The position numbers were made by a program, and so were the translations under genes. Of a DNA stretch of 64,000 nucleotides, positions 4,725 through 64,000 are shown one piece after another. The notes under the pieces were generated by a model. The model was not told the origin of the DNA. It saw only the letters and a program-made list of their open reading frames with translations, and ran no database searches. Position 1 is the first letter of the stretch. Every line of letters begins with the position of its first letter. The DNA is from Saururus chinensis. Its lineage: Eukaryota; Streptophyta; Magnoliopsida; Piperales; Saururaceae. The stretch covers positions 24,101,092 through 24,165,091 of the forward strand of contig CP141143.1 in assembly GCA_035235625.1 (NCBI GenBank), in the 5' to 3' direction.

Positions 4725-5545
4725 TGGTAAGATCACGATGTGTTGGTAAACACATCGGTGAGAGGAAGAGGATAAATAGTACTCTGCACGCATGCAATGG
4801 TGTGCACGATGCACGATATTTTGATCATCAGCAGTGGAGTCGACTCATCAATAGACGTTAATGAATAAGGCAAATTGATAGTCATCCCACCCTCGGTAGG
4901 GTTTGATGTGTTGGTAAGCTCATCGATAGTAATCAATGATGTAGCCGATTTGTCAGAAGTTTGTCAATAGCACCTTTAGTCTACTATCAGTGGGGTTCAA
5001 CATGTTGATGAACCCACAATGGTCATCGGCGACGTAGCCGATCTATCGTAAGGTTGCCTATAGTTAAACAAGATTTTGGTTTTTTAATAAATGTTATAGC
5101 AATGATTAAGCTATGATCATTATGAATGTAAATGCATGATTTAAGGCATTTGATAATGTGATTTAACTGTTGACTATGCACTAGTAAATAAAGGTTGATG
5201 AACCCTAAGATATGTGTATGAGACCACTTGATGTGATGAATAAGTACCTAAAACAATGCAATAGGCACCTAAGGTCAAGAGTTTCTTAGTGTCTTAGCTT
5301 CTCAAGTAAGTCATTAGCTATGTAAACGGAAACAGTTTGGTATAAAATAAGACCAAACTTTTCCAATAAGGATAAGAATTATGTAGAACCACACCCTAGC
5401 CTAAGGTTATGTTCGAATGAATTAGAGCATTAAGAGATGACTGGGCATGCGTAGCATAATATAGGAGGTTTTGATGATCATGAAAGTCATAATCTCAATA
5501 CTAGGGTCCATGAGCCTTTTTTTCATAACATGGATGGGGTGAGGT
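4725..5545 (+). repeat. Left arm of a giant inverted repeat (LTR-like fossil)
   Basis: This stretch matches, in reverse complement, 6230-7180. The shared course includes degenerate ~100-bp subrepeats (TTGATGAACTCATCGATGG-like units), then a long colinear stretch with ATGTGTATGAGACC, GTTAGCTA(T/C)GTAAA, TTCGAA(T/C)(G/A)A(A/C)T and ACTAGGGTCCATGAG. By eye the arms are well diverged (roughly 70-75 % identical). The outer end of the partner arm looks like a Gypsy LTR start, so this is most likely an old LTR fragment. Confidence 0.6.
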
Positions 5546-13430: not shown

Positions 13431-13702
13431 GTTACGAGCTCGACCCGTCGTGAACCCGGCAATGGACTTGGGCCTGTGGTCGGACTTTACGGAGGCCAGC
13501 TCGGAAACCCGGCCCGTCAAAACCCCCGAAAAACCACGAAGCTGAGGCTTCAACAACCTCGACACAAACATGAACGGCTTAGATCTGTGGACCCCAAGGC
13601 ACCCGCAGCCATAAAAACTCGCCCGCAGACTCAGACTAGAGCTTCAATCGAGATCCGAATCCTCAGAACCCCTGCAATTAAATCCGAATTTCCCCGGAGA
13701 CC

Positions 13703-13710
13703 AAACCCTA
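13703..13710 (+). promoter_or_regulatory. Telo-box in the SF1 leader
   Basis: AAACCCTA followed by GCCCTAG, about 30 bases before the SF1 start codon. Telo-boxes near the start are common in plant genes for RNA processing and translation, and suggest constitutive, growth-linked expression. The role here is inference. Confidence 0.45.
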
Positions 13711-13737
13711 GCCCTAGCTCCACCTCCGCCGTCTCCG

Positions 13738-15966
13738 ATGGAGGCCTCTGCAATTCCCTCCACCGAAACGCTGCCCTTCCAATCCCACGACGCCGCGGAA
13801 ACCCTAGATCCCCAGCTGCCCCTCGAACCCAACCCTCTGCCCCCTCCCGCGGCTCTCTCCGACCAGTCAAACCCTCCGCCGCCCCCCTCCAATCACGTTC
13901 CCAACGGGTCGGCTCACCCGGGCAGCAACAGCGGCGGTGCGGCCGCCGAGGCCTCCGGCGGAGAGGATGATGCCTCCAGCCGGCGGCGCCGTCGCAGCCG
14001 ATGGGACCCTCCTTCGGGGTCTGGAGACGGGGACGCGTCGTCCGGGGGGCGCAAGCGGAAGTCGCGGTGGGCGGACGACGAGCCGGCAAGGACGGTGATC
14101 CAGCTGCCAGACTTCATGAAGGACTTCACTGGGGGGATGGAGCTGGACCCGGAGGTGCAGGCGCTTAACATCCGCCTGCTCGAGATCAGCCGCATGCTTC
14201 AGTCCGGCCTTCCGCTCGACGACCGCCCGGAGGGTGCCCGCTCGCCGTCGCCTGAGCCCATCTACGACAACATAGGCATCCGCATCAACACTCGGGAGTA
14301 CCGGGCCAGAGAGAAGCTCAACCGGGAGCGCCAGCAAATAATCTCGGAGCTCATCAAGCGTAACCCGGCGTTTAAGCCGCCTGCGGACTACCGACCACCC
14401 AAGCTCCAGAAGAAGCTTTACATACCCATGAAGGAGTATCCCGGATATAATTTCATCGGGCTTATTATCGGGCCGAGGGGCAATACCCAGAAGCGAATGG
14501 AGAAGGAGACGGGGGCGAAGATTGTCATTCGAGGGAAGGGGTCGGTTAAGGAGGGCAGGCTGCAGCAGAAGCAAAATCTGAAGCCAGACCCGGCGGAGAA
14601 CGAGGATTTGCACGTCCTGGTTGAGGCGGAGACGCAGGAGGCACTTGATGCCGCAGCAGGGATGGTGGAGAAACTGCTCCAGCCGGTGGATGAGGTTCTC
14701 AACGAGCACAAGCGGCAGCAGTTGAGGGAGCTGGCGGCCCTTAATGGAACGATAAGGGATGACGAGTTCTGCAGGCTGTGTGGTGAGCCGGGGCACCGGC
14801 AGTTTGCCTGTCCTGCCCGGACCACTACGTTCAAGAGCGATGTCTCGTGCAAGATTTGTGGGGATGGGGGACACCCTACCATTGATTGTCCGATGAAGGG
14901 CTCTGGGAAGAAGATGGACGACGAGTACCAGAATTTCCTGGCTGAGCTGGGAGGGGCAGCACCCGAATCGACACGGCAGAATTCATTGGTGCCGGCACTT
15001 GGGTCGTCAACTGGAAGTAATCCACCATGGGCCAGTGGAACTGCGACAGGGGCTTCCGCGGGGGTGAAGCTTGTGAAGGAGTACGACGAGACCAATCTGT
15101 ATATCGGATACTTGCCTCCTAACTTTGATGATGATGCACTGATACGTTTATTTTCTCCATTTGGGGAAATTGCTATGGCCAAAGTCATTAAGGATCGGAT
15201 AACGGGCTTGAGCAAAGGGTATGGATTTGTTAAGTATTCGGATGTTGCTCAAGCCAACACGGCAATTGCTAGTATGAATGGGTATCGATTGGAGGGCAGA
15301 GTTATCGCAGTCAGGGTCGCAGGTAAGCCGCCGCAACCAACAGTTCCCCCGGGCCCTCCTGCAGCTCCTGCTGCACCAACGTACCCGGATCCTGGATCAT
15401 ACCCATCCCAGCAGTACACCTCCGGTGGCCCCCTTGGAAGTGCTCCGCCTGGAGGCTACATGGGAGCTCCGGTTCCTTGGGGACCACCTGTGCCCCCTCC
15501 TTACGCTCCATATAACCCTCCACCGCCTGGTTCAAATGTGTATGCACAGCCAATGCCGCCTTATGGTGTTCCTTACCCTCCTCCTCCTATGCCTTTGGCG
15601 CCTACCCCGACCTCTACAGCTGCCCCTGCGCAAACTGTGCCCTCCAGTGACTCCCAGAATTACCCTCCTGGAGTGCAGTCTCAGAGCAGTACTTCCTCAC
15701 ACTCTGTCACAAATAACGTTTATGGAATGAACCCTAATGTGCAATCCGCATATCCACCATCTTCTTATGGTTATCCGTCATACTATCCTGTCCCTCCTGT
15801 GCCTCACTCGTCAATGGACCCGACACAGAGCTTGAATAATGCTCCTTGGGCAGCTCCTCCTCCTCCTCCACCTCCTCCTGCGGTAGCAGTATCGGTTTCT
15901 TCTACAGAAACAGCCACTTATGGTGGAGAATCGGAGTATGAAAAGTTCATGGCCGAGATGAAGTGA
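13738..15966 (+). CDS. SF1: Splicing factor SF1 / branchpoint-bridging protein
   Basis: A complete 742-residue intronless frame. SF1 recognises the intron branchpoint in the nucleus and bridges to U2AF during early spliceosome assembly. Domains in order: a proline-rich head; two arginine-flanked tryptophan motifs, RSRW near residue 88 and RKSRW near 110, of the kind that bind the U2AF65 UHM; the SF1 helix-hairpin with an SPSP motif near 168 (phosphorylated in animal SF1); a KH domain about 226-325 with the GPRG loop near 245, followed by the QUA2 helix; two CCHC zinc knuckles near 345-358 ([14 protein letters not shown]) and 371-384 ([14 protein letters not shown]); an RRM about 453-530 ([17 protein letters not shown]); and a long Pro/Tyr/Ser-rich tail. 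The extra RRM is the mark of plant SF1 and is absent from yeast and animal forms. ATG 13738 gives the full head. The first half is very GC-rich, which opens long antisense frames that I discard. Confidence 0.96.
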
Positions 15967-24530: not shown

Positions 24531-25190
24531 CAGTGGAACGCTTCTACCACGTGACAATGCATAAGTCCATTTATGTTTTAACATATATAATTAAGTTAAA
24601 ACCTGAATTTATTCATGTTCAAACATGTATAAACTATTTAATTAAACATGTCAAATAGTGAATAAATTTATCTACCACATTGCTTATAGAACGGTTCCAT
24701 TGGATAATTTTTCCTCCGATCAATTGTGACATTCATATGTCATAATGGTCAATTAGGCTCTAATGCTTGGGTCTACAATCTACAGAACAACTTCGGTAAA
24801 ATTGTAGTATTTATTTTATATAGTGGCAATTTTTGTAATTGTTTTGGGATATTTTCCTATATCACCTAAACCAAGATACAAATATTTCTTATTCTCTAAA
24901 ATTTAACAGATAATCCCATATAGCTTGGTTTATGACAAAAATACTCTTAGGTAATAAATTAATTAAATCTCAAGACCTTATCAACGACTGATCAACATAG
25001 GCATATCTCTGACTATGACTACCGTCGGGTAGTTAGAGGAAATAACCCCTTGCCCCCCCTCCTTTTTCCTTCACATGAGCTTTTCCTGTAAAAAAAATCA
25101 TTCTTCGGCATAATGGACAAAATAATCATCAATATTCACAACATGCATGAACACGATATGTATACTTTGAATGTATTTGAAAACATGACA
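24531..25190 (+). repeat. Upstream block of SKP1 locus, copy B (matches 52545-53215)
   Basis: Direct-orientation match to 52545-53215, including CATGTCAAATAGTGAAT, ATGCTTGGGTCTACAAT, CCAAGATACAAATATTTCTT and AACATGCATGAACACGAT. In the 52-kb copy this block lies upstream of an SKP1 promoter remnant; here it abuts the truncated SKP1 body directly, so the promoter has been deleted. Confidence 0.9.
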
Positions 25191-25261
25191 TGTACTATAT
25201 CGTATTAATTAATATGTTGTGGTTCATATTACATCAATGATAATATATTTCAACAATATGT

Positions 25262-25383
25262 ATCATATAGTACTAATGATAACCTGATATGTGTCGTATA
25301 GTGTTAACGATAATACAATATGTGCCTTATAGTGTTAAGGATAACACGATATGTGTCCTATAGTGTTAACAATAATGTGATAT

Positions 25384-25462
<79 letters not shown>

Positions 25463-25560
25463 TTAATGATAGCACGATATGACATATAGTGTTAACGATA
25501 ATGCAATATGTGTCATATAGTTTTAGCGATAACACGATGTGTACCACATACTATTAATGA
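25262..25560 (+). repeat. ~31-bp minisatellite split by a (TA)n tract
   Basis: About seven diverged units of the type CGATATGTGTCATATAGTG plus TTAACGATAACA. One unit has been expanded by about 35 TA dinucleotides at 25389-25459. The array starts next to ACACGATATGTATAC, a word present at the same place in the 52-kb duplicate, which lacks the array. It therefore arose, or was inserted, after the duplication. Confidence 0.82.
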
Positions 25561-26194
25561 GCTCGTTGTATGGCAGCATAAACCCAACCAAAGTAGCCAT
25601 GCCAAGGGTGTTGACGAAGCCCAACAAGTATTGGGTGCTAGAAACGCTGGGAGGATGGTCCTGCTATCACGGATGCCGAGAAGAACTGCACCTAAGGTGA
25701 TTAGCACTTCTGCATTAATGGAATAAGGGGTCAACCTCTACTTACGATGATAAGGGCAAAGAAAGCAATGAAGGCGAATGGGTGGAGATAAGAAGGAAGG
25801 AGAGCCCCTCTGAGTTCATGAAGTTGTCTGATCCCATTATGAGGCCTATGATCCCACTTACTGCTGATGGGAATTGCTGGTCAAAAGTCAAAAATTACAA
25901 AGTGCCGCTGGTCTCTAATGATTTCTTTGCTCATGCGTCATCGCTGACATTTTTACACAAGTTTAACCCCTAACCCTTGTTGTACGGGTATTTTGGTTCA
26001 ATTTTTTAAAACACTCATTTGAACCCTAGTTTTATAAATTATTTTTTTACAAAACCATGTAATTGAGAATATTTGCATCTTGGGGAAGGTAATATGGAAA
26101 AATCCCTTGTTATGGTCTAATGTTTATACTTAGACAATTCATCTTCCAAAAAAAAAACCTCTTTTCAACGTTTCTTTATCATTGTAGTGTTTCC
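25561..26194. other. Unrecognised sequence specific to copy B
   Basis: This stretch is absent from the paralogous position near 53215. A plus-strand frame around 25770-25973 reads GEWVEIRRKESPSEFMK, with weak likeness to stretches in plant LINE or other TE proteins, but nothing that secures a family. I leave it unassigned. Confidence 0.35.
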
Positions 26195-30234: not shown

Positions 30235-33039
30235 ATATCACTCATGGTGATGCCTTTGTAATTGACTTCCATGTCTACCTCTATAAGAACTCAAATTTTG
30301 ATGACCCCTACTGCCATAGTCTTGATCTTGGGTGGCATGATCAAAATATTGTTCTTTAGTAAAAACTATATGACTTGATGATCTACCACCCACCCCACAC
30401 CCACCCCCTTGACCACCACCATCCACTTCACAATTACCACCATCAACTTGACCACCACCATCATTAATACTAGAAGAATTCGAATTTGATTCTATTATTG
30501 TTCCTCTTGTAGGGGTCTTCATCATGTCATAAAAATTATCATCATCATCTTCCATTATCCTTGTTACTGTACTAGAATAATTATTCACCCATTCATGAAC
30601 ATCAACACCCATTTGTGCACCTATTAATTGACTAGGTGCTCGTGGTGGCTCCCTTGCCTCATCCAAAACAGTTTCCCCAATTTCTGCTAACCATGAATTG
30701 AATGGGTCATCTTTTCCAAATATATGACTCAAATTAATTGGATCATAATAACCCTCTTCTCTCTTGTGATTTATCTCAAGATTTTTTACTCTATTGTGCA
30801 TGTTGTAATGAACATATACTAATTGTTCCAATTGTTTGTATGATAGTCGATTCCTTTGTTTTGTATAGATGAGGGCAAAAGTACTCCAATTTCTTTCACA
30901 TCCAGCTGATGAAGTTGTTTATGAAAGGATCCTAACTGCAATCTTCCTTAAATCAGGGGCATCCATCCCATAACCAAGCCACCACTCAGCTAAAATTATA
31001 AGATTAAAATTTAGAAATCAATTAAATCATTATTTTAGAGATAAAAATGACATAATCTAAGAACCACAAACAATATATAGCTTACATGGTTTTGTGGTTT
31101 CCCAAGATTTCATGGCCACAGCTGAACCAAAACTGATTTCTTTTTGTCTAAATATCCTTCCCTACAAAATAAAATTTACACACTAATGTGAGATACTATT
31201 TAATGTTTCATAAATTCTAAAATATTATAGGTTATCATAATGTACTTGTCGAAAAGCTTTGATAGCTAGATTTATATTTCGTTCTAGTGTCTCAATTACT
31301 CTTTGTAAGCATTGCAACAATATATCATCAGTTGCAATATCTTTGCTATATTGATATTTAGGTTTAAGACAGAAAGCTAAAACAAGGTTAAAAAGATAAA
31401 TTAGAGATAAAGTTGTGTAAATATTTACTAATCAAAAAGGGAAATATATACATGCTCCATGTAAATCATGCACAAGTTGTTTGTTCCATCTATCTTCAAT
31501 GATATCACAAAATTGCTTATGATCTCTTGTAGTTTTTTCTATAGCCTTCTTACAAAGCCTCATATTTATATCCCATTGTAGGTTTTTTGTAACCATCAAC
31601 TATTCTTAATACTTTTATATGGGCTCTAAGATGACAACCATCTCTTTGACAGCATCCCAAAAACTGTTACTCAACACAACATCTTCAACCTATTTTGTTT
31701 GTTTTGTCCTATTCAACTTGTGATTAAACCATTTTTCTAATGTAAACATGGCTTTCAGACCTTGTTTCTATTTTAAAATGCTAGAAAGAGCTACAAAGTT
31801 AATAGCAAATAGTGTAATACTTGGTCGTACTAACTCTTAAGATGTAAACTCTCTCATCAATGCTAATACCCTCAAGCGGTTGTAGATGACATTAGTAACT
31901 GTTTTTGCCTTTTTCATTGTACTTTTCATCTTATCCTTAGCTCCAATATCTTTTAGCATCAAATCTACACAATGTGCAGTACAAGGGGTCCAATATAAAT
32001 GTTTCCTTTTTACTTCAAGATTTTTACCTGCCTTCTTGTAGTTTGATCCATTGTCTGTAACAATTTGTATGACATTTTCCTCACCAATCTCTTCAAATAT
32101 ATCATCCATCAACTTAGACAAGTACTTAGAGTTTTTACTTTACTTGAAGCATCAACTAACTTCAAGAAAATTGTTCTACTTGTAGATGATATTAAGAAAT
32201 TGATAATACTCAATTTTGTTGTTCCAGTCCAGCGATCACACATAATAGTGACTCCATATGTTTCCCAAGTTTTCTTCATACCATTGATATGTTATTTCAA
32301 TTCTTGAATCTCCTCCTCAAAGTAGATTCCATATACTTCTTTGGCAGTTGGAGCTTTCACACCTGCACTGGCATCTTGAATCTCATTAACCATAGTCTTG
32401 TAATAGGGAAAATTGCATACATGAGCTGGAATATGGTTGTAAAAAAGAAATTTTGAAATAGCTTTGCCAATTTTTTTCCTTCCCTTCCCTAGCCATGTCT
32501 CATCCAACCTACTTTGTTTGACATTTTCTGACCTAAACAAGTATGGATAAGCTAATAGCAATTGTTTCCCCATTTTACTCTCCTTCGATCTTGAGCCAAC
32601 ATGTCCTTTGTCCAAAGCCTCTCTCACACTTTGAGTTCTACGCAAACCTCTAAATCCATTGGCACCCCTTAACGTATCCTCTTCTTCTTGATGTGCAAAT
32701 GCTCGACTCTCATGCATTGCTTCTTTGAATTCCTTTCTTTCTCTAATTGACAGTTCATCATCATCATTCACATTGTCATCATCAATATCAACTATGCTCA
32801 CACTTTACTTATTCTTACTTCATCGCAAATGCTCTCTTATTTTTATTTTCACTTCCTTTGGGCATGTTGGACACGCTTGGGCATTACCACCTAAACCTGC
32901 CAAATGAAGCTTTAGTTGAGTGACACCTCCCCTGGCTATGATACATCCACACTAATTACATTGCATCTTATGCCTACTTCCACCAACCCTTGAACCGTGA
33001 TTTCACCGAATGTCAAGCTCTTTCTTATTTGATGCCATC
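30235..33039 (-). pseudogene. hAT transposase, degenerate
   Basis: In minus-strand order: MASNKKELDIR, then a BED-type zinc finger (GSRHKMQCN, CGCIIARGGVTQLKLHLAG) with stops inside it near 33005 and 32950; a block with GLRRTQSVREALDKG and LFYNHIPAHVCNFPYYKTMV (32801-32292), the conserved start of the DUF659/transposase core; VIQIVTDNGSNYKKAGK and LYWTPCTAHCVDLMLKDIG (32121-31837), containing the catalytic-core Asp and the CxxH motif; and a C-terminal hAT dimerisation stretch SSAGCERNWSTF with NRLSYKQLEQLVYVHYNM (about 30930-30780). The tail is Gly/Asp-rich. Several stops and frame changes separate the blocks; some gaps could be introns. The protein would have bound the subterminal GATACG motifs and cut at the CATGG ends. 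It cannot be active as it stands. Confidence 0.88.
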
Positions 33040-41131: not shown

Positions 41132-44100
41132 CTCCTTAATTTGTAATTTTTATATGGTTTTTAAAATATATAAACTTCTTAATTGTTACCGTTTTGGTGA
41201 ATATATCGGCTAATTAATCATTAATTTTGATAAACTTCAATTTAACTTTACTTTTCTTGACTAGTTCTCTTATGTAATGATGTCTTAACTCAATATATTT
41301 TATTTTTTCACGAAAGATTAGATTTTTAGTCATCACAATGGTCGACATGTTGTTACAAAAAAATTATTGTTAGATATGCTTGCTCACACTTGAGATCCTT
41401 GAGAATTCTTCTTAACCAAACCGCTTCATATGATAAACTTGAAGATGAGATATATTCGGCTTTGACGGAGGAGAGAGCAACAATGTCTTGCTTCTTTGAT
41501 GACCATGATATTACCTTGCTTCCCAATGTGAACATATAGTCGAAAGTGCTTATTCTATTATCAATGCTACCGGCCTAATCACTTTTGGAATAGCTAATCA
41601 ATTCCTTCTCCTTTTTACAATCATATTTTAGCCAAAAGTTCTTTGTTCCTTTCATATACCTCAAAATTTTCTTTGCCGCCTTAAGATGAGTTTTACTTGA
41701 TTTGGTCATGTACTTAACAACAATGCTTACACTATGCACATATCGGGTCTCGTGTTTGTTAAGTATATCAAAGAACCAAAATGACTTCTATAAGAAGATT
41801 AATCCACCAATTTACATCCATCATCTTTTGACAATTTCACATCCATAGCCATAGGAGTAACTATTTCTTTTCAATTAGTTAAATTAAATTTTTCAACAAA
41901 TCATCAACATATTTTTCTTGAAATAAAAATATTTCACCATCTTTTTGTTTCATTGAATCCTAAGAAAATATGTCATGTGTCTTAGATCGGTCACCTCATA
42001 TTCTTTCTTCATAGTGTACTTGAATTCTTTTATCATCCTTGGGCTATTGCTAGTGTAAATCAAATCATCTACATAAAGATAAACAATGATAAAATCATGC
42101 ATATATTTTTTCTTTACATAGAGAGATGACTCATTTGGGCTTCTTTGAAATCTACTTTGTTTAAAATACTTATCAATCTTGCTATTCCATGCTCTTGGAG
42201 CTTGTTTGAGTCCATACAAAGCTTTGTTGAGTTTGTAGACCTTCCATTCCTTACCTTTGACTTTGTATCCTTGTAGTTGCTCAACATAGACTTCTTCTTC
42301 AAGCTTTCTATTTAAAAAGGCCGATTTGACATCAAATGATACACTTGTAGTTTCAATTGAGCGGCAAGTACAAGAATAATTCTTATAGTTTACGTTCTTG
42401 CAACGGGATCATAGGTTTCATTGAAGTCGATGCCGGGTTGTTGTGAGTACCCTTTTGCAACTAGCCTTGCTTTATATTTTTGAATTGAGCCATCTTTATT
42501 GAACTTTATTTTATACACCCATTTCAATCCAATCACTTCTTTGTCTTGAGGTTTATCAACTAACTCCAATGTCATATTTTTCTCAATCATATTCATCTCA
42601 CTATTCATTGCTTTTATCCAAACTTCTTCTCTTGAAGCATCTTTAAATTTTATTGGATCATAAGAAAAGAATGCAACATCACATTCATTATAAATTTCTT
42701 GAAGTGAGCGTACCTTTATTGGAGGTGAATCACTATCCACATTATTTGGATTAATTTGATATATGCTTGAATCTTGCCTTGAAAGAGTTTCATGCTCTTA
42801 TGATTATAAAACATTTGAAGTTTGATGACTTAATGAAGCTTCTTCTTTTTTATCTTCTACATACACTTTTGAAGATCCACCATTGTTTTCTTTAAAGTTC
42901 CATGAGCCTTCTTCATCAAAGATTACATATCTTGAAATCACTAATTCCTTTGTTTTAAGATTGAAAAGCCTATAAGCCTTAGATTCTTCACTATTTCTAA
43001 TAAAGATGCATTTTCTCCTTTCTCATCAAACTTTCTTTTTTTTTTTGTGTAGAAATATTAGTATAAACAATGCATCCAAAAATTTTGAAGTAACTTACTT
43101 GTGATTTTTTCTTGTCATGCCTCATATGGTGTCATATTTCGAACCGCCTTTGTTGGAGACCTATTAAAAATGTAAGTGGCCGTATTAACGACTTTTGCCC
43201 AAAATTGGTTTGGAAGATTCTTCCCTTTAAGCATGCTTCTTGCCATCTCTACAATGGTTCTATATCTTCTTTTTGCTACACCATTTTGTTGAGGTGTGTA
43301 GCTAGTTGTTAGATCTCTCTTGATGTCATGTTCTTTGCAAAAATTCTAAATTTTTTTTGATGTGAATTCACCACCACGATTAATCCTCAAGGCATTTAAT
43401 TTCTTTCCACTTTGATTTTCTACAAATGTTTTGAATTGCACAAATATAGAAAATGTATATGATTTGACATATATAATATAAACCCACATCATTCTTGTAA
43501 AATCATCTACAATGAGTATAAAGTACATTTTCTTGTTAAATAATGGTGTGTTTCTTAGTCCACATATATCGGCATGAACAAGCTAAAGTGGTTCTTTTGA
43601 TCTCCAAGTCGACTCCAAAAATGGTAGTCTATGTTATTTCCATATATGCACCCCTCACAAATATCTTCTTCTTAATTGATTCTTTGAAGTCCAAAAACTA
43701 TGTTCTTTTGATTGAGCAAAGTGAGAATCCTATAGTTCAAATACCCAAACCTCAAGTGCCACAATAGAGAGTCATCCATATGAATAACCTTCATTCCATA
43801 GTTTGCACAAAGAGACATAACTAATGAAAATATCTTGTTTGATGCAATTTTGACTTTTGCTATCACTTGCCCCATGCTTTTATCAATTATAACACATTAA
43901 ACTTTGCCAAAGTGTATTTTATAACCTCTGTGCATAAGTTGCCCCACACTAAGTAAATTTTGTATTAAATTAGGAACGTAAAGAACATCATAAATGAGTT
44001 TAGGCTCACCTTTCTTTGTTTGGATGGCTATGATTCCTTTGCCCTCAACTTTTTGCATTTTTTCATTTCCTAGTTTTACTTGAGAGTTGTTATTTTGTTC

Positions 44101-45159
44101 AAGCTTCACAAAGCTTTCTTGGTTGCCCGTCTTTTGGTTACTACAAGCACTATCTAAGTACCAAACATCATTCATTTCTTCTTGTGTGTTCATGCAAGAG
44201 TAGAATAAGTGGCTTTGTTTATCTTCCTCATTTTTGGTGAGTGTGGTACTTGCATCTCTTACATCTAAAATAACAATAATCGACAACATGATTTGTCTTC
44301 TTACAAATGAAACAACCATTATTTTGCTTCTCATATTTACCTCTTCCATTTGAATTCTCTTTTCCACCATTTTCTTGATTTCCCTTTCCTCTACCTTGGA
44401 ATGAATTATTTTAAAAAATTTTCTTTCCTCTATCTTCCTTTTTCTCCTTGAAAGTCAATTTAGATTTAAAAGCTTGCTCAAAAGAGCAAGGAGTAAACTT
44501 CTTCATTCTTGCTTCATGAGTTTCAAGAGAACTCATTAACTCATAAATGCTCAATTTTGATAAATCTTTTGCCTCTTCAATAGTGGCCACAACATGCTTA
44601 AATTTAGCTGGCATGCTTCTTAACACTTTTTGCACAATCTTCTTATCCAGAATACTGTCACCATATATTTAAATTTGTTTAACAATGGTAGAAACTCTAG
44701 AATTAAAATATTAAACATTCTCACTATCTTTCATTTCCAAATTATCGAAATGCCTCAATAAGTTTGAAGCTTGATAGCAATTACCTCTTTGGTCCCTTGA
44801 AATTCATTCCTCAAAATTTTTCATGCATCTTTTGATTTTGTGGAAGCCATGATTCTTGGAAAAATTGCTTGTCTCACCGCTTGTTGTATATAGAATTGGG
44901 CTTTTGCATCTTGATTCTTGTTCTCTTTGTATGCCTTCTTCTTCTCTTCATCCTAAATTGCTAGGTCTTCTCCATTTTGTGTTTCTTCATAGCCTTTTTT
45001 AATATACTCCCATAGATATTTGGATATAAAGAGGGTCCACATTTATATTCTCCAAAAATCATAGCTTTCTCCATCGAACACCAGCAACGGAAGCTTCTTC
45101 GATGAACTTGAACATGAGGCCATGATGGTTTAAGAAAACTCAAAGGATTGATATTTTCC

Positions 45160-52205: not shown

Positions 52206-52544
52206 GTACCTTTGTAGTAGGGATATTCTGCTCATTGCCGACCATCCACTGCTTCAACTCTTGCATTACCAACTACACGGGATCTATTCCTTGGTGTTGT
52301 TGTTTGTTAATTTTAGTCACTTTTGTTGTGCATCTTAAGTTAAAGTGTTTGAGTGCCATATTCCATTGCCTGATTATGCCACTTTTAATGTTTTGCACTT
52401 GTATTTTGAGTTGGATTCTTTCTTCTCATTGACTAAGCACCATATTCTACCTATACTTGTATCTCTTTTTGTATTTTGTATGTACAAGTATGAAAGAATG
52501 GGATCATGTTGTCAGTGAGTGCAGTCATCTTCGATTAAGAAATT
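52206..52544. other. Upstream sequence specific to copy C
   Basis: Lies between the SKP1 promoter remnant and the upstream block shared with 24.5 kb. It does not match the region upstream of the intact SKP1. No gene is seen. Confidence 0.4.
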
Positions 52545-53548
52545 GTATCCAATGGAACCATTCTACCATGTGGCCATGCATAGGTCCATTCATGTTTTAA
52601 CATGTACACCTAAGTCAAAACCTGAATATATTCGCATTCAAACATGTATAAACCATATAATTAAACATGTCAAATAGTGAATGGATTTATCTACCATGTG
52701 GCATATGGAATGGTTCCACTAGATTATTTTTCCTTCATTCAATTGTGACATTCATATGTCGTAATGGTCAAATAGGTTGTAATGCTTGGGTCTACAATTT
52801 ATGGAACTTCTTCGGTAAAATTATTGTATTTATTTTGTATAGTGGCAATTGTTGTAATTGTTATGGGACATTTTTCCATATTACCTAACCCAAGATACAA
52901 ATATTTCTTATTCCCTGGATTTTAACACATAATCCCATATAACTTGGTTTATGACAAAAGTACTCTTTAGGTAATAAATTAACCAAATCCCCAGATCTTA
53001 TCGACGACTCAGCAAAGGCATATCACTGACTATCACTAGAGGCGGTTCATTAGAGGCAGTTACCCCACCACACCTTTTTCCTCCACATAAGCTTTTCTTG
53101 TTAAAAAAAATGTCCTTTTCTCTAGCATTGATGATCCACTCTTTAGCATAATGGACAAAGTAATCGTCAACATTCACAACATGCATGAACACGATATGTA
53201 TACTTTGCATGTATTCAATAATCAAAAGGTACTGATTATTGAACAAAAGAAAATCTCGGTGTTAAAGGAAAATAAGCTGCATTTATGTTTGTAACGTGTT
53301 CCATTCTTTAGTTTCAAATTATGGCCTAGCAAGACTGTATGAATACAATGTTGTTAGTATTTTGGATCTGCCATAACCTTGTTTATTGCAAGCAAGTTTA
53401 GTAAGGTTCTTATTACTAGCGATCAGTTTTCTTGCCTAGCTTTTTTCTATTTTGTGGGGGTGGGGAGATGTATTCTATTACTGAATTTCAAATTGTCTTA
53501 AGAATGAAAGGCAAATAGTTGTCATTATCCACAATAATGAGTATATGT
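52545..53548 (+). repeat. Upstream block of SKP1 locus, copy C
   Basis: Direct match to 24531-25190 followed without gap by the counterpart of 26195-26530. The minisatellite and unassigned 1-kb stretch of copy B are missing, so copy C keeps the simpler, probably older state. The block is cut at its right end by the second Copia element. Confidence 0.9.
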
Positions 53549-53828: not shown

Positions 53829-56800
53829 CCCCCTTCTTAATTTATAATTTTCATAACATTTCTAAAATATATGAACTTCTCAATTGTTACTGCTTTGTTG
53901 AACACCCCGACTAATTGATCATTGGTCTTGATAAACTTCAACTCAACTTCACCTTTCTTCACTAATTCTCTTATGTAATGATGTCTCCAATGTGCTTTGT
54001 CCTTCCATGAAAGGTTGGGTTTTTAGTTATTGCAATGGCTGATAGGTTGTCACAAAAATTGTTGTTGGATATGCTTGCTTACACTTGAGAGCTTTGAGAA
54101 TTATTTTTAACCAAACCACTTCACATGATGCACTTGAAGATGAAATGCACTATGCTTCGGCAGAGGAAAGAGCAATAGTGTCTTTCTTTTTTTATTACCA
54201 TGATATTATTTTGCTTCCCAATGCGAAAACATAACCAGAAGTTCTTCTTTTATCATTAATGCTACTGGCCCAATTATTATCAGAATAGCCAATCAATTCA
54301 TTCCCTTTTTTGCATTCATAATTTAGCCCAAAATTCTTTGTTCCTTTCACATACCTCAAAATTCTCTTTGCCACCTCAAAATGAGTTTTACTTAGTTTAC
54401 TCATGTACCTAGCAACAATGCTCACATTATGCACAATACCAGGTCTTATGTTTGTCAAGTAGATTAATGAACTAATAAGACTTCTATAAGGTAATTCATC
54501 CACCAATTTGCATCCATAATATTTTGAAAACTTCTCATTCATAGCCGTAGGAGTAAATATTTTTTTGCAATTAGTCAAATTAAACTTTTTTAACGAATCA
54601 TCGACATATTTATCTTGAGATAAGAATATTTCACCATCTTTTTGTTTCACTTGAATCTCAAGAAAATATGTCATAAGTCCTAAATTGATCATCTCATATT
54701 CTTGTTTTCATAGTTTACTTGAACTCTTTTATTATCTTAGATTATTGCTAGTGTAAATCAAATCATCAACATAAGGGCATACAATGATAAAATTATGCAT
54801 ACCTTCTTTTTTTTTTCAATAGAGAGATGGCTCACTTGGGCTTCTTTGGAATCCATTTCATTTAAAATACTTGTCAATGTTTTTATTCCATACTATTGGA
54901 GCTTGTTTGAGTTCATACAAGGCTTTGTGGAGTTTGTAGATTTTCCCTTCCTTGCATTTGACATTGTATCCTTGTGGTTGTTCAACACAGACCTCTTCTT
55001 CAAGCTCTCTATTTAAAAACGCTGATTTGACATCAAATTGATACACTTATAATTTCAATTAAGTAGCAAGTGCAAAAAAAATTCTTATAGTTTTCATTCT
55101 TGCAACGGGAGCATAGGTTTCATTAAAGTCAATGCTGGGTTGTTGTGAGTACCCCTTTGTAACTAGCCTTTCTTTATGTTCTTGGATTGAGCAATCTTCA
55201 TTGAACTTTATTTTGTATACCCATTTCAAGCCAATCACATCTTTGTCTTAAGATTTATCAACTAACTCCCATGTCTAATTTTTCTCAATCATATTTATCA
55301 CATTTTTCATTGCTTCTATCCAAACTTTTTCTATTTTGTTAAATTAAAAAAATATGCAACATCACATTCGTCATAAATTTCTTGAAATGAGCTTACCTTT
55401 CTTGGAGGTGAATTACTATCCACATTATTTGGATTAAGTTGTCATTTATTTGAATCTTGCGTTGAGTCATGATGTGTAGGAGTTTCATGCTCTTGTGATT
55501 ATGAACAACTTGATGTTTGATGACTTGATGGAGTTTCTTCTTTTTCATCTTCTACATACACTTTTGAAGATCCACTATTGTTTTCTTCAAAATTCAATGA
55601 GCTTTCTTCATTAAAGATTACATCTATTTAAATCACCAATTCCTTTGTTTTAAGATTAAAAAGCCTATAAGCCTTTGATTCTTCACTAGATCCAATGAAG
55701 ATATATTCTTCTCATTTCTCGTCAAACTTGCTTCTCTTTTGTGTAAGAATATGAGCATAAGCAATGTATCAAAAAATTTTGAAATAACTTACTTGTAGTT
55801 TTCTCTTGTACCATGTCTCATAAGGTGACATATTTTGAACCGCCTTTGTTAGAGACCTATTAATGATGTAGGTGGTAGTATTGATGGCTTCCACCCAAAA
55901 TTGGTTTGAAAGATTCTTCCCTTTGAGCATGCTTCTTTCCATCTCCACAATTGTTTTATTCTTTTCTCTGCTACAATACCATTTTGTTGAGGTGTGCAGA
56001 TAGTTGTTAGATCTTTTTTGATGCCATGTTCTTTGCTAAAATTCCAAAATTCTCTTTATGTAAACTCACCACCATGATATGTCCTCAAGGATTTTAATTT
56101 CTTTCCACTTTGATTTTCTACAAGTGTCTTGAATTGCACAAACATGGAAAATGGATCCGATTTGGATCTATAAGATAAACCCACATCATTTTTGTAAAAT
56201 CATCTACAAAGAGTAAAAGATACATTTTCTTGTTTAATGATGGTGTGTTTGTTGGTCTACATATGTCAGCATAAATAAGCTCAAGTGGTTCTTTTGATCT
56301 CCAAGTTTACTCTGAAAGTGGTAGTCTATGTGGTTTTCCATATATGCATCTCTCACAAATATTTTTTTCTTGATTGATTTTTTGAAGTCCAAAGACCATG
56401 TTATTTTAGTTGAGTAAAGAGAGACTCCTATAGTTCAAATTTCCAAACCTTAGGTGTCATTATAAAGAGTCATTTATATGAATAACCTTCATTCCATGGT
56501 TTGTACAAATAGACATAACTAATGAAAATAATTTGTTTGGTATCATTTTGACATTTGGTATCACTTGCATCTTGCCTTTATTAATTACAATACATCATCT
56601 TTGTCAAAATGCACTTTATAGCTTCATTGCATAAGTTGTCCGATACTAAGCAAATTTTGTGTTAAACTGTAAACATAAAGCACATCATAAATGAGTTTAG
56701 ATGTGCCTTTCTTTAGTTGGACTGCTATGATTCCTTTACCCTTAACTGTTTGCATTTTTCCATCTCCTAGCTTTACTTAAGAGTTGTTATTTTGTTCAAG

Positions 56801-57891
56801 CTTCAAAAACTTTCCCGATTGCCCGCCATGTGGTTGTTACAACCATTATCTAAGTACAAAACATCATTTCTTTCTTCTTGTCTGTTCATGCAAGAGTAGA
56901 ATAAATAACTTTGATTATCTTCCTCCTTTTCGGTGAAATGTGTTTGGTCCTTATTTTGAAGCAATCCTTGGAGCATAAGTATGGTGATTGCATCTCTTGC
57001 ATTTAAAATAGCAATCATCGACAACATGATTTATTTTCATACAAATGAAACAACCATTGTTTTTCTTTTCATATTTACCTCTTCCATTTCCCTGGTACCC
57101 CTTTCCTCTACCTTGAAATAAATTATTTTGAAATTTTTTATTTCCATAATCTTCCCTTTTTTCCTTGAAAGTCAATTTGGATTGAAAAGATTGCTCCATG
57201 GAGGAAGGAGTAAACTTCTTCATTCTTACTTCATGAGTTTCAAGATAACTCATAAACTCAAGCATGCTCAATTTAGATAAATATCCTCTTCAATAGCTGC
57301 CACAACATGCACAAATTTGGTCGGCATGCTTCTTAAAACTTTTTGCACAATCTTCTTTTCCGGAATACTATCTCCATACTTTCTAATTTGATTAACAATG
57401 GTAGTAACTATAGAGTTAAAATCTTGAACATTCTCACTATCTTTCATTGCCAATTTGTCAAAATCCCTCCATAAAGTTTGAAGCTTGATAGAAATTACCT
57501 TTTCAGTCCTTTGAAATTCATTTTTCAAAATTTTTCATTCTTCGTTTGATCCTGTGGAAACCATGATTCTTGAAAAAATTGCTTTGCTCATCGCTTGTTG
57601 TATGTAAAATAGGGCTTTTGCATCTTGCTTCTGGTTCTCTTTCTATGCATTCTTCTTCTCTTCATCCCAAGTGGCTAGAGCTTCTCTATTTTGTAGTTCT
57701 TCATAGCCTTATTTAACATACTCCCATTGATCTTTGGATATGAAGAGAGTCCTCATTTGTATGCTCTAAAAATCGTAGCTTTCCCCATCGAATGTCTGCA
57801 ACATAAGCTTCTCCGATGAAAAACTTAAACATGAAGCCATGGTGATTTTAGGAAACCCAATAAATTTGATATTTACCTCAACTACCAAATT

Positions 57892-58302: not shown

Positions 58303-58560
58303 GAGTCTTTATTCGATTGATATAGTTATTGTATTTCACAATTTATAATTTAGAAAAATATGTCATCCACTGTTATGAGCAAACTTTATTTGATGCGAGG
58401 TCTCAAAAGCCTATGAAATTTATTTAAAGTTCAAATAATTTTTATTTTTGGACAAGTTTACCTTCTTCCTTCTTTCTTATGTTTCCCCTTCATCTTCCTT
58501 CCACCTTCATCCATCATCTAGATCTTTAGTTCCTCCTTTCTCTTTCTTTCATGGATCTTC
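58303..58560. other. End of locus copy C and AT-rich spacer
   Basis: GAGTCTTTATTCG...GTATTTCACAATT continues the copy C match to about 26535-26667, then homology ends near 58360 where copy B has the Helitron-like terminus. The rest is unassigned. Confidence 0.5.
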
Positions 58561-58599
58561 TCCTCTCCTCCCTCTTCCTAGTCGTCCTTAGCTAACTCC

Positions 58600-59095
58600 A
58601 CCTCACCCTCAGAGGCCACCTCTTCGGCCACCGCTGCAGCCCACCGAGACCCTGGCCAATCCTCAGCAACCTCCCCCACCTTGGCCTCATCCCCCGTAAA
58701 GGCCCTCAACGACTTCCGCCACATTCGAGAGGACGAGGTCGCCACTATCGTCACATCCCTCTCCCATTGTGCCACCACCGGCCAGGTTGCCAAACTCATT
58801 GATCTGCTCAACGTTTGCACCACCAACACCCTCAAAAGGGTGCTGCTAGGTTCGTGGAAGGGGTAGGGAAGGAGGCGAGTGAGTTCAAGGAGATGGTGGT
58901 GGAGTTGATGGTCCTGGATGGCATCTTCAACGTGGGTGACTTCATCCCAGCCCTTGACTGGCTTGACTTCCAAGGCGTCGCCAGAAAGATGAAGCGCCTC
59001 CATTGCCGCTTCAACTCCTTCCTCTTCCGCATCCTCGATGACCACCATGGCTCCTTCGGCCTCAACCAAGAGTGCCACCAGGATATCCTAACAAA
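58600..59095 (+). pseudogene. Flavonoid 3'-hydroxylase (CYP75B-like) fragment
   Basis: The plus strand encodes pieces of a P450 of the F3'H type, which hydroxylates the flavonoid B-ring at the ER. In order: PRPWPILSNLPHLGLIP (the proline-rich N-terminal hinge), then directly KALNDFRHIREDEV and LLNVCTTNTLKRVLLG, then after a frame change FKEMVVELMVLDGIFNVGDF, IPALDWLDFQGVARKMKRLH. In intact F3'H about 80-100 residues separate the first two pieces, and some residues near GRRVFG are missing before the third. The I-helix, ExxR and heme-binding cysteine are absent. It is GC-richer than its surroundings and looks like a captured or shuffled gene fragment. Confidence 0.88.
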
Positions 59096-59178
59096 GACAG
59101 TAAATATTTACTCTCTTTGTATATATATGAAGAGAGTAAATTACTCTCTTTGTATATAACAAAGTGAGTAAATATTTA
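59093..59178. repeat. Short inverted/direct repeat cluster
   Basis: GTAAATATTTACTCTCTTTG TATATA is followed by GAGAGTAAATTACTCTCTTTG and then GTGAGTAAATATTTA. Each contains a self-complementary AGTAAAT(ATTT)ACT core. It separates the F3'H fragment from the next GC-rich piece, as expected for a fragment junction or small foldback. Confidence 0.65.
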
Positions 59179-59179
59179 A

Positions 59180-59440
59180 TGTCTTCTTCCTTCACACAGT
59201 TGCTGCAGCAGAGCTTGCTGGAGGTGCTAGAGTCGAACATCTTTGCTGCCTCCAGTAGCGCCGATATGAAGCTCATCGCCCTTTTGATCAATTGGTTTCT
59301 CTCTGATTCGCAAGTCTACGATTCGAGGAAGCTCAACAAGGAGAGGTGGACGGACTTGGCGGAGGGATCCTCGGCAGAGCTACAGCCGGGAGGGCCTCAA
59401 GGAGTCCCTCCATACCATCAAGCTTTGAATCCTTAGTGTT
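59180..59440 (+). pseudogene. Unrecognised GC-rich gene fragment
   Basis: A plus-strand frame with TQLLQQSLLEVLESNIFAAS, DMKLIALLINWFLSDSQVYD and RKLNKERWTDLAEG is protein-like but I cannot place it. It lacks a proper start and end. The composition resembles the F3'H piece next to it, so both may have been moved together. Confidence 0.4.
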
Positions 59441-59860
59441 AGTTCCAGTTTGGGCTTTTGGCTCAGTAGAAAAATATTAGCGCTTGAAGGGGAGGAGTGC
59501 AGTCATTTCTTGTAGCAATAGGGGCGAGGTTGAAGTGGTGAGAAGGAGCAGAGGTGGCGACCTTGGGAGAGGGATGGTGACCGGCAGTGCGAGGTGAACC
59601 AAGAGGGAGAGGAGAGTGGGGAGCGAGGCATAAGCGGGTCAGTCTGGATGGAGATGAGAAGAGGTGGGGTGATGGGAGAAGAAGGTGGAGGTGGCCGGAG
59701 ATGGAAACCGCGGTGAGGAGATTGTACGGTGAGCGGCAGTAGGGATGTGAGGTGAACATAGATGGAAATGGAGACGAATGAATGAGAATAGAAGAAGAGG
59801 AGGGTGGCTGGGGGCATTTTTGTTGGAATATAAATTTTAGAGTTAATGACAAATTAATAA
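59441..59860. other. Purine-rich GC stretch, no gene
   Basis: GGAG/GGTGG-rich plus strand, giving Ser/Pro/His-rich minus-strand frames of low complexity. A TATGTTTTAGGTAATACTTG word just after it (59887) also occurs near 39886, in front of the SKP1 promoter, which may mark a shared repeat. Confidence 0.4.
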
Positions 59861-60499
59861 GTTTTTTTGTAGTTAATGTTTTAATATGTTTTAGGTAATA
59901 CTTGAAATTATATAAGAGGTTTTTCCATATTGCCTTGCCGAAGAGTACAAAATTCCATATTCCCTAGATTGTAAACACAAATGCCATCAAACCTGGAATA
60001 TCATGATATAATGTAATTTTTGGACAAAAATACCCCTAACCGAAGATAGGGTTTTATATCGTGTAAAACCCTCACGAAGTCGCATTCACACGCAAACGAC
60101 TTCAAACGCTGGCGATTCCTTCGATTGAAAAGTCTATTTCAATTTTTGACACATCAATTTCGTTATTTGGAGCAATGAGCAACATTCACGCAGCATGAGA
60201 GGAGATTTTGTGACCTATCTGACCAGCGATTACAAAAACCTATAGTCGAATTTTCAAAGATTAGGGTTTTTTGTATTCTAGAAGTAGTTTTCGAAAAACA
60301 CTCCAGCGTTAGTTCCGTGTCAACATGTTTTGCAAGGTGATTTTGAAACTGTATGCCCCAAAGCAAGTTTTGGCCATGTAGCGAGGTTACATTTGACTCG
60401 ATCCCAGTAAAGGAGTGAACTTTGGAGATAATCAACAGCCGATCAAGGGGTCAATCCAGCTTGGATTTGGCTTGGAGAAAACCACCTGTTGTTTTGTGG
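59861..60499. other. Upstream/leader region of the mobile-domain gene
   Basis: Probably 5' flank and a first non-coding exon ending at the donor GTAAGG at 60500. The segment 60050-60480 is GC-richer and has no stop-free frame of note on the plus strand. Confidence 0.35.
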
Positions 60500-60829
60500 T
60501 AAGGCCTTTACCAAAATCTATATGGTATGTTTATATACATGATTTTTGGTTTGTCGTGTGATAAAACACACGACATAGCTAGTCAAAGGAGACTATCGAG
60601 TTTTTAGAAAGACGATAAGTCATATATCATGTGTTATATAAGACACTGGCAATACGATATTCAACCATTGTGATATCGTGTATGAGAGGTCCTCTTATCG
60701 TATGTCTGATAACACGATACATATACTTATTGTATATATAGAAGTTAGTTAGATCATGTGAATCAATGCAACTATTGATTATGGTCACTACCCATTGTTG
60801 ATATACATATATTTATCCAATTTTGCAGA
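60500..60829 (+). other. Putative intron 1 of the mobile-domain gene
   Basis: GTAAGG donor and TCCAATTTTGCAG acceptor. Contains the palindrome GTCGTGTG-ATAAAA-CACACGAC (60553-60574) and the degenerate form ATCGTATGTCTGATAACACG (60697-60718). Confidence 0.55.
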
Positions 60830-61571
60830 AAGTTAGGGTATTATAGCAAATGGTGGAGTCAATGAAGGCAACAAAAGATAAGAAGAAGAGAATCTACGAG
60901 AGAAGGCTGGGTTTGGGAACAAATAGTTTCCCCGCTCGACTTCTTCTATCAAAAGGCCTTGTAGATTCACATCCGGGATGCAAGGCCATCTTGGTGGAGA
61001 CTAGGTTCTACCTAGTATTTGATTGCGAGCCCATCATCATCTGTAGGCCGCTCTTGGATGTTCTCATTAATGAGTGTTGGGACGACTCACAGGAGGTCTT
61101 CAACATTAGGGGCAAAAGACTACCCCTTACTATGGATGAAGTGGCTATGATCACGGGGTTGAGTGGAAAAGGGAACCCATGTAAATTGGAAAGTAGAAAA
61201 GGGAAAGTTGCCCAAGGCAAGGGGCAATTCTACAAGAAGTTCTTCCAAGGAAAGCGGTTGGAGAAGATAGGACTTGAAGAAATGTGGAAAGAAGTAGCTA
61301 CCGACACACGGACTGTGTCAGATGAGGACATAGCATAGTTGGCTATCATGCACATGGGGGTCCTAGTGTTATTCACACAACAACAAAGCTGTATCCCTAA
61401 CTCTGTGTGATTACATAGATGACATGTCAGTCGTGGGGAGCTACAATTGGGCTAGGGCTGTACATGATAGTTGATGAGAGGCATATCATCAGTCTACCAG
61501 AACATCATGAGCAGATAGGATGAGCGCTCCACCATAGTCGAAATTCTCATTGGGGCTTCATTAGTTCTCCA

Positions 61572-61853
61572 GGTAACGCTCGTATTATTAATATCATGAT
61601 AAATTCTATTATCGTTTGTCTAATGACACGATATTTCTACAAAACACATGTATATCGTTGTATCATATAAAATCCATCATGTTATAAAAAATACATGGTA
61701 TAAGATACACGTAGAAATATCATGTATAGGACATTACACGATAATGAAGTATTGTGTAATCGCTAACATGATTTGGCAGTGAAGCGTGTTATACGTAACA
61801 CGACTATTATTGTCATATTTACACAACTGATCATTTTCTTTTGTTTTGTCCAC
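61572..61853 (+). other. Putative intron 2 of the mobile-domain gene
   Basis: CCAG/GTAACG donor and TTTGTCCACCAG acceptor join LVLQ to RWFYEHT. It contains ATCGTTTGTCTAATGACACG (61611-61632) and CGTGTTA-TACG-TAACACG (61785-61802). Confidence 0.6.
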
Positions 61854-62619
61854 CAGAGATGGTTTTATGAGCATACCTCTATATGGGCTCCCAGTGGTCC
61901 TCCATTTAGCCCGAGGTGCAAGAGGTGGCCCAGATTCACCCAACTTTTGAACAACATTGAGAAGGATGCTAAACTTGACCTGGCCGATGAAAAGGCGAGG
62001 AAGAAGCTTCTAGCTCATCATCAGATGAGGAAGTGGTAAGAGGAGGTGTTCATGCGTTTGAAGCCTGACTCCCATATTATTATGTGAATTACACCAATTG
62101 CCAAAGAGTCCCACTTGATGGATGGCCAAAGGGCGACCCTGAAGCCTAAGAAGGTAGGTACGGAAAGAATGATACATCGGACAATGAAACCCATCCACTC
62201 CCACCATGGCGAGACTTTAGGGCATATACATTCTGGCTAGGACGTCATTGAATCATTTGTCATGTTAGTTGATATCACGACCGAAATTTGTGATGTTGTT
62301 TTGGAGAAGGCTGTTCTCTACGGTGAGCTGGGATGGAGCACTGAGAGAGCTGAAGCTGCACGCAAATGAGTTAAAAATGATATGGAGGTGGCAACAAGTC
62401 TCATAGAATAGATGCAACACTCTGAGGAATTGGAGATAGAACATCCGCATGAACCCCCTCAATCGGAAGTCCCCTAAGCATCAATCCCTCCTCCAAGAAC
62501 CAAAGGATCGTTGTTGGTTCGTGTCAAGTCAAGAGCTTCAAAATCTAGAGGTCCCCAACCATTTGCCCATGAAGATAAACCAGTACTTGTCCCTCAGCCG
62601 GTGGACGAGGGATTCATTT

Positions 62620-62920
62620 TGAGTAAGCACAACAATTTAATGTATCATGTTGGTATGGGAATATTTGTGTAATTGAGTACATGATAGCCTAAACAGTCAT
62701 GCTTTAAGAAAGACGATTTCGTTGTGGTCGTGTGATCGATCACACGAGCATTGAACTAGGGGTTTGTTAAAAAAATACTCTGGTTGTGGTCGTGTGATCA
62801 TTAAGACGATTAGGCCATTTTTCCATTTTTTCATCAATACGATCATGTTTCATCGTGTAAGCTAAAACAAAATTGTCGTGCGTATCGTTTATTGACTAAT
62901 TTGGTTACTTCTTAAATGCA
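62620..62920 (+). other. Putative intron 3 of the mobile-domain gene
   Basis: GTAAGC donor and CTTAAATGCAG acceptor. It contains the perfect 20-bp palindrome TCGTGTGATCGATCACACGA (62728-62747) and, 60 bp on, a diverged second copy preceded by the same GTTGTGGTCGTGTGATC word. Confidence 0.58.
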
Positions 62921-63786
62921 GAGAAAAGGCAGCCACAAGCTGCCTCCAAAATAAAGAAGAAGACATGTCAGAAGTTGCAAAGGACCATAATGAGATTTTT
63001 AAAGAAAATAAATGAAGAAGTCCAAAATCAAACCTAGGAGGTTGAGGAACAACCTTGGGAGGTCGAAGAACAACCCCGGGAGGGACTGGAACAACCCCTA
63101 GAGGGACAGGAAGAACCCCGAGAAGCAAATAAAGGAGGGGAACGTACAAATAAAGAAGTAGTTCGTCAAAAGTCAATAAAACTGAGATTTAAGTGGAAAG
63201 CTGCCCATGTCGCACCCTTCCTACGTCCGGTGCCCTAGAAGTTGAGGTACACCACTGTTGAACCATTTGCTAAAGGTGAGGAGGCAATCGACAAGGGGGT
63301 CACTCAGGGCTCAAAGAAGATGAAGCATTTCAGTAGCTACATGGAGGAGAAGTTAGCCAAGTTTGGACCATGGAACAAAATGCAAAGCTTGGTGATGAAG
63401 TTCCTCTGGCATCAGTCCCTGGTACATACATTATTCATCCGGCACCGCCAAAGTCAATCACCCCAAAACCAGTGGGCTAAACTGCTGGCTCCAGTGGTAG
63501 CAATTTATCAGATACTTCTCCAGTTGATCAGGAAGTACTAGAGAGTATCTGCAATGTGATAGAGGTCAAAGAGGAGGTTGAGAAGAAGACAATTAAGGAG
63601 GAGGTCAGTCTGCGGCCAAAGAACTATCTTGACACAAAGTTGGTGTTCTACATTGAGATTCAGAAGTATGTAGATAAGGACATTATCATGGAATTTCTGG
63701 CACACCTATACAAGACGTGGCCGGTAGAAACTCTCTTCTACACCGACTACCTATCTCTGTTAAAGATAGAGTGCATGACCAATGAG

Positions 63787-64000
63787 GTAATATCGTTTTA
63801 TTGATCAAACATTTTAAACTATCTCGTGTTATTAATCACACGATAGCGTAACTAACGAAATGAAACATTTATATATCTCTCTATCAGTAACATGACATTT
63901 GCTCATATCGTTGTTTGCATAATACGCTAATTTTCATCTCTATTGTTGATGTATAAATAGCATATTGGTTAATACATGACTTGGAAATTCATTGTGTTAT
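63787..64000 (+). other. Putative intron 4, runs off the window
   Basis: GTAATA donor after ACCAATGAG. It contains TCGTGTTATTAATCACACGA (63824-63843), a near-perfect palindrome of the same form as in introns 1 to 3. Confidence 0.5.

Follow-up and report, generated by a model that had tools for sequence, protein, structure and literature searches.

Palindromes reiterated in the introns of a Mutator-like transposon gene of Saururus chinensis, candidate target sites of a VANC-like protein

Genes for Ulp1-like peptidases are carried by several plant Mutator-like elements (MULEs), namely the Kaonashi/KI elements and the melon CUMULE; to our knowledge, motif arrays have been reported neither for Kaonashi/KI nor for CUMULE. 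Eudicot VANC genes with DUF1985, DUF287 or Ulp1 domains were reportedly described by Sasaki et al. 2022 (EMBO J 41:e110070), who are also said to have found that the sequence, the density and the helical periodicity of the motif set VANC specificity. The VANC systems of the Arabidopsis VANDAL elements are considered here from two published accounts. VANC proteins combine a DUF1985 domain with tandem peptide repeats (PMC5735166). VANC21 binds YAGTATTAY in introns, intergenic regions and terminal non-coding parts of VANDAL21, the targets of VANC6 have different motifs, and both VANC21 and VANC6 motifs occur in tandem repeats (PMC5735166). Silencing by RdDM and anti-silencing by VANC converge on the same non-coding DNA, and the VANDAL elements are described with degenerate inverted termini (PMC10398659).

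The element carrying the palindromes

The window, i.e. the whole stretch of 64,000 nucleotides analysed here, had previously been read from its letters alone as containing a gene whose introns share a palindrome, unlike ordinary introns of one gene. The shared palindromes are real, but their carrier is a transposon gene and not a host gene: judged from its sequence, the palindrome-bearing gene makes up the left half of a Mutator-like DNA transposon (MULE) that has decayed. The features of this copy are as follows.

59914..59995, + strand: left end of the MULE, a terminal inverted repeat of ~82 bp whose inverted counterpart is found in sibling copies
59914..60498, + strand: 5′ non-coding stretch of the MULE, no palindrome by scan
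60499..60828, + strand: putative intron 1, preceding the ATG (60850); palindrome sites at 60554, 60627 and 60698
60829..61572, + strand: exon A, the DUF1985 exon of the VANC-like gene; interrupted by a TAG at 61336-61338 and a frameshift
61573..61856, + strand: putative intron 2; palindrome sites at 61580, 61612, 61677, 61752 and 61784
61857..62622, + strand: exon B of the VANC-like gene, open-frame pieces; 2 motif matches in 11,785 bases of 16 copies
62623..62921, + strand: putative intron 3; palindrome sites at 62665, 62728 (perfect), 62790 and 62853, in steps of 63, 62 and 63 bp
62922..63786, + strand: exon C; 1 motif match in 10,809 bases of 16 copies
63787..64000, + strand: putative intron 4, continuing to ~64088 outside the window; palindrome sites at 63793, 63824, 63992, 64024 and 64055, the last three at or past the window end

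Ten of the loci with the best matches to the palindrome pattern in the genome were taken with 20 kb each, and five further loci with 3 kb each. In the nine 20-kb loci other than that of the window, the main pieces share ~72-85% DNA identity with the window copy, and in six of them the similarity begins no more than 17 bases away from position 59914. The five 3-kb loci also match the window copy (~63-78% identity). All 15 best palindrome loci, including that of the window, belong to one element family. The left-terminus sequence was found inverted at the far end of copies E5a (82 bp, 87.8% identity), E8c (82 bp, 86.6%) and E3a (75 bp, 77.3%). The two arms of E5a itself are identical at 72 of 82 bases; its terminal inverted repeats are not degenerate, and for this reason we did not file the element as a VANDAL. 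In this one full-length copy, a 9-bp flanking target duplication was read by eye. For the copy in the window, a right terminus was looked for but not found. The right half of the MULE codes, on the minus strand, for a MURA-type transposase (DBD_Tnp_Mut, 5.2e-8; MULE, 1e-10; SWIM, 2.8e-10), and a MULE domain match of 42.4 bits was obtained in the right half of the window copy itself, which lies beyond the window end. Related copies present, as an element with two genes, ~82-bp inverted termini, a MURA-type transposase and a gene for a DUF1985/Ulp1-like C48 peptidase.

The donor GT of introns 1 to 4 is kept in 10 of 10, 14 of 15, 13 of 15 and 10 of 11 copies, respectively, and the acceptor AG of introns 1 to 3 in 10 of 11, 8 of 14 and 11 of 15 copies. 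The four putative introns have the appearance of true introns in a gene family undergoing decay. In exon A, the in-frame TAG at 61336-61338 is followed by a frameshift and further stops, and the window copy of the gene looks dead. The DUF1985 match of the window exon A piece (E 0.0055, 17.1 bits) is under the 35.1-bit cut-off, and that of a sibling copy (L036, 36.8 bits) is above it. The fold predicted without an alignment for the window DUF1985 piece had a mean pLDDT of 36, and no inference was drawn from it. In exon C, a 21-bp tandem repeat (63037-63123) codes for a reiterated 7-residue peptide of the EQPxE type. The C48 exon lies downstream of intron 4, outside the window; Peptidase_C48 was matched in four of five sibling pieces (best E 3.3e-11), and a Pfam scan of two pieces on their own gave no C48 match. 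Compared with solved structures, the C48 exon matched SENP proteases in all 10 cases listed (best E 0.0016). No DUF287 match was obtained in the pieces scanned.

Other features were observed elsewhere in the window. Positions 58439-59915 form a direct repeat (83-86% alike) of ~72739-74140 (window coordinates, locus L017), which lies outside the window, and this repeat ends at the MULE left terminus. One of its frames resembles a cytochrome P450 fragment (F3′H-like by eye; structure matches with E 0.15 and 0.21) and has no Pfam match. An open frame of 783 residues, resembling by eye the plant splicing factor SF1/BBP, is located on the + strand at 13615-15966. Fragments of Copia-type retrotransposons (Pol_BBD, RVT_2, gag) and one of a hAT dimerisation domain, the latter slightly under the cut-off, were found at 43897-44451, 54195-54704, 57268-57531 and 30238-30915.

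Number and position of the palindromes

With CpG decay tolerated, the 20-bp consensus of the palindrome is approximately TCGTGTNATNNATNACACGA. We searched the whole window for this pattern with at most 3 mismatches, for which the chance expectation is a mean of 0.01 match per window (100 shuffles). The palindromes that the sequence-only reading had placed at 60554-60573, 62728-62747 (perfect) and 63824-63843 were all recovered (1, 0 and 1 mismatches, respectively), together with matches at 62790-62809 (3 mismatches) and 30762 (3 mismatches). The copy given by the same reading at 61611-61632 is present as a decayed site at 61612, but it is weaker than supposed (4 strict mismatches), and the diverged copies given at 60697, 62789 and 61785 exist, with true starts at 60698, 62790 and 61784. 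Sites 61784 and 60698 have, like 61612, 4 strict mismatches each, and the comparison with sibling copies identifies these three as decayed sites.

A scan tolerant of CpG decay gave 28 matches in the window. Fourteen of them are within 60554-63843 and every one is intronic, in agreement with the earlier claim that the palindromes lie in the four putative introns and in none of the exons between them. The remaining 60 kb contain the other 14 matches, 4 of which are in the array of a second MULE (25.3-25.5 kb). Over 16 copies, the comparison of introns with exons that had been proposed as a check shows a motif abundant in introns and nearly absent from coding DNA: the same scan found 205 matches in 16,050 bases of introns vs. 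7 in 35,687 bases of exons A-D, and 5 in the 1,632 bases downstream of exon D. With the strict pattern and at most 4 mismatches, 95 matches were found in introns, 1 in exons A-D and 0 in both the 5′ stretch and the stretch after exon D. As the 15 loci were selected for matching the pattern best in the genome, the counts and the conservation of intron 3 are biased; introns 1, 2 and 4 without intron 3 contain 146 matches in 11,424 bases. In the transposase half (five copies), 0 matches were found in 6,073 coding bases vs. 22 in 6,998 other bases. The scan of the 5′ stretch, i.e. the first 585 bp including the terminus, gave 0 palindrome matches in 5,220 bases of 10 copies.

This 5′ stretch contains a 19-bp near-palindrome, TCGTGTAAAACCCTCACGA, at 60059-60077, next to an AAACCCT word; this near-palindrome is possibly a promoter version of the motif. 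The best conserved window of the stretch is 60048-60067 (0.96). A second short word, AGAAAGACGAT, is common to introns 1 and 3 (60602-60616 and 62703-62717) and is also found between palindromes of other copies.

Alignment of the introns of paralogous copies, as had been recommended, places the palindrome sites at homologous positions. For the 17 sites of the window element, chosen by the CpG-tolerant scan of the window copy, the cross-copy consensus resembles TCGTGTNATNNATNACACGA, only in part at some sites. CpG transitions represent 201 of the 579 differences from the site consensus at these sites, themselves picked by a CpG-tolerant scan, which suggests that the palindrome sites were methylated in the past. 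In introns 1, 2 and 4, intron 3 being biased by the choice of loci, the palindromes do not clearly stand out as the most conserved stretches of 20 bp, and the copy alignments show overall about equal conservation of introns and exons, which speaks against reading the sites simply in terms of constraint.

We then searched the genome (516 Mb, 11 contigs) with at most 3 mismatches, an equal frequency of the motif in other DNA having been named beforehand as grounds for refutation. The palindrome was found at 4730 places vs. 165 for the reversed pattern and therefore belongs to a large repeat family. A chance origin of the palindromes is ruled out by this control and by the shuffles. Among the near-perfect palindromes listed for contigs C1-C3 (at least 44, as the matches for C3 are possibly incomplete), 7 of 44 are within 3 kb of a DUF1985 exon, vs. 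~0.07 expected (computed for 43); the exons compared are the 47 listed for the subfamily of the element, from the best 150 of 2315 candidates. One palindrome (C3:48590080) is more than 1 Mb from any DUF1985 exon compared, and a further DUF1985 match (C2:29956661) is 1.3 kb from a palindrome (C2:29955351).

Spacing of the palindromes and a related element

Within the introns of the window element, neighbouring palindromes are 73, 71, 32, 65, 75, 32, 63, 62, 63, 31, 168, 32 and 31 bp apart (13 distances), with a mean cosine of 0.82 at 10.5 bp (p 0.0002 after scanning periods 8-13). The favoured spacings are close to multiples of 10.5 bp (31-32, 52-53, 62-64, 71-73 and 82-85 bp), and the palindrome sites would thus sit on one face of the helix. 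When tested copy by copy, 9 of 10 copies show the 10.5-bp period (p ≤0.022), one copy fails (L011, p 0.15), and the best single period of E4w is 15.4.

Palindrome pairs were also counted in the genome, with totals of 752 and 695 vs. 41 and 35 for the control, and of 820 and 772 vs. 46 and 53 in another search. Spacings were taken from the first 100 pairs of each of two lists, all on contig C1 and with paralogous copies included. Of the 82 distinct places listed with a spacing of 28-58 bp, 53 are at 31-32 bp and 11 at 51-54 bp, with no peak at 42 bp; without the 31-32 class, this list is weakly phased (mean cosine 0.30, p 0.016). The 82 distinct places listed with a spacing of 59-89 bp include 26 at 62-64, 16 at 71-73 and 22 at 82-85 bp, and none of 50,000 uniform draws was equally phased. 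Of the 8 places that this second search gave with a spacing of 82 bp, at least 4 belong to a single other repeat. The genome-wide phasing is due in part to the paralogous copies and to the 31-bp unit; spacings of 52, 72 and 84 bp are not multiples of 31.5.

The second MULE of the window, hereafter element X, has the following features.

24848..26106, no strand assigned: element X, a short MULE relative that has inverted ends, placed by eye, and is flanked by a near-perfect duplication of 9 bp
25256..25542, + strand: 31-bp tandem array in element X, carrying the variant motif TAGTGTTAACGATAACACGA

Tandem Repeats Finder gave a period of 31 for this array, with 9.2 copies and 71% matches, and an AT microsatellite splits it. 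Seven copies of the variant motif were found with at most 5 mismatches, spaced by 31, 31, 31, 97, 29 and 31 bp. A second copy of element X, without the array and without the right end, is located at 52527-53400 in homologous surroundings. Over 79 bp, the terminus of this second copy shares 79.7% identity with that of the first MULE. The same 31-bp step with an altered motif would be the expected trace of co-evolving pairs of motif and protein, as a single case and not as a proof.

Explanations of the palindromes and comparison with described systems

The palindromes are probably the target sites of a VANC-like anti-silencing protein made by the very gene that they interrupt. The MULE gene would encode a VANC-like protein with DUF1985 and an Ulp1-like peptidase domain; this protein would bind the reiterated palindromes in introns and other non-coding DNA of its own element and, once bound, would strip silencing marks from its own transposon family alone. 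The anti-silencing role is proposed by analogy with the VANC of Arabidopsis VANDAL elements. This reading is favoured by the confinement of the 15 best palindrome loci to one family, the transposase and DUF1985/C48 genes, the preference of the motif for non-coding DNA, its proximity to DUF1985 exons, its spacing and the variant in element X; the unremarkable conservation of the sites in introns 1, 2 and 4, their absence from the first 585 bp, the non-degenerate termini, the lack of a 42-bp peak and the one copy that fails the 10.5-bp test weigh against it. The three origins first imagined for the palindromes included conserved regulatory sites, which fit best, provided that they are placed in a transposon and not in a host gene. 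A more elaborate version, which we regard as rather unlikely, is that a dimeric VANC-like protein assembles cooperatively on phased palindromes at least 3 helical turns apart, along one face of the DNA, while its Ulp1-like domain de-SUMOylates silencing factors and opens the chromatin of its own family.

Dyad symmetry over 20 bp and helical spacing would fit any dimeric DNA-binding protein, and the element could have accumulated, as enhancers, sites for a host transcription factor or chromatin protein. We consider this unlikely: the 15 best matches are all within a single element family, and the related element X has an altered motif with the same step, as expected of a co-evolving element protein. 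The element also encodes a transposase with a DNA-binding domain, which might recognise the palindromes. Sites of MULE transposases are expected at the element termini, whereas the palindromes lie in introns or between coding exons and are missing from the first 585 bp with the terminus, so that this origin has a low probability.

Each palindrome could fold as a 9-bp RNA stem, and intronic hairpins might affect splicing or yield small RNAs. However, compensatory changes are few (13, vs. 169 one-sided arm changes that break a pair and 98 that lead to G-T), the motif is also common outside the VANC-like gene, and its spacing tracks the DNA helix, which makes RNA hairpins very improbable. The other two origins that had been imagined, introner-like introns and a tiny mobile palindrome settled in introns, agree with the presence of copies in each intron and are still harder to believe. 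In the repeat search, the introns matched one another in the motif and in other short stretches but showed no similarity over intron length, each intron contains several sites, and the motif recurs in the transposase half and, in variant form, in the array of element X. The sites are at homologous positions in copies ~63-85% alike, and a mobile palindrome would not account for spacings near multiples of 10.5 bp. In five alignment blocks, no homologous introns differing by one palindrome with a target duplication were seen.

With target sites of a VANC-like protein as the preferred reading, an odd intron palindrome becomes a testable pair of protein and DNA. The transposon family looks very large (2315 first-look candidates for DUF1985 exons, of which the best 150 were scored). 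As the window contains a relative with a variant motif and the same 31-bp step, the genome may supply a natural series in which to follow changes in the specificity of anti-silencing and to ask if phasing and the Ulp1-like domain play a part. If the cooperative version were true, both motif phasing and the Ulp1 domain would be tied to the mechanism of anti-silencing.

Like the VANC21/VANDAL21 (Hiun) and VANC6/VANDAL6 systems of Arabidopsis, the element is a MULE that carries one gene for a transposase and another with DUF1985. As in VANDAL21 and VANDAL6, a short motif is found in introns and other non-coding DNA, often in tandem, here with near-absence from coding DNA, and related elements carry different motifs. 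Tandem peptide repeats, here in exon C, are another feature shared with VANC proteins. In contrast, the motif is here a 20-bp palindrome, vs. YAGTATTAY or AGTTGTCC/AC in VANDAL21 and VANDAL6; a C48 domain is present, with no DUF287 match in the pieces scanned; and, unlike VANDAL21 with its terminal sites, the first 585 bp contain none. Unlike in VANDAL elements, inverted termini of ~82 bp are kept (72 of 82 bases identical between the arms of E5a). The likeness to VANDAL21 and VANDAL6 is one of anatomy, the present element being known from its sequence. The combination of a MULE transposase with a C48 peptidase gene is common to Kaonashi/KI, to CUMULE and to the present element, a MULE whose inverted termini are clear and whose palindromes are best interpreted as the target-site array of a VANC-like system.
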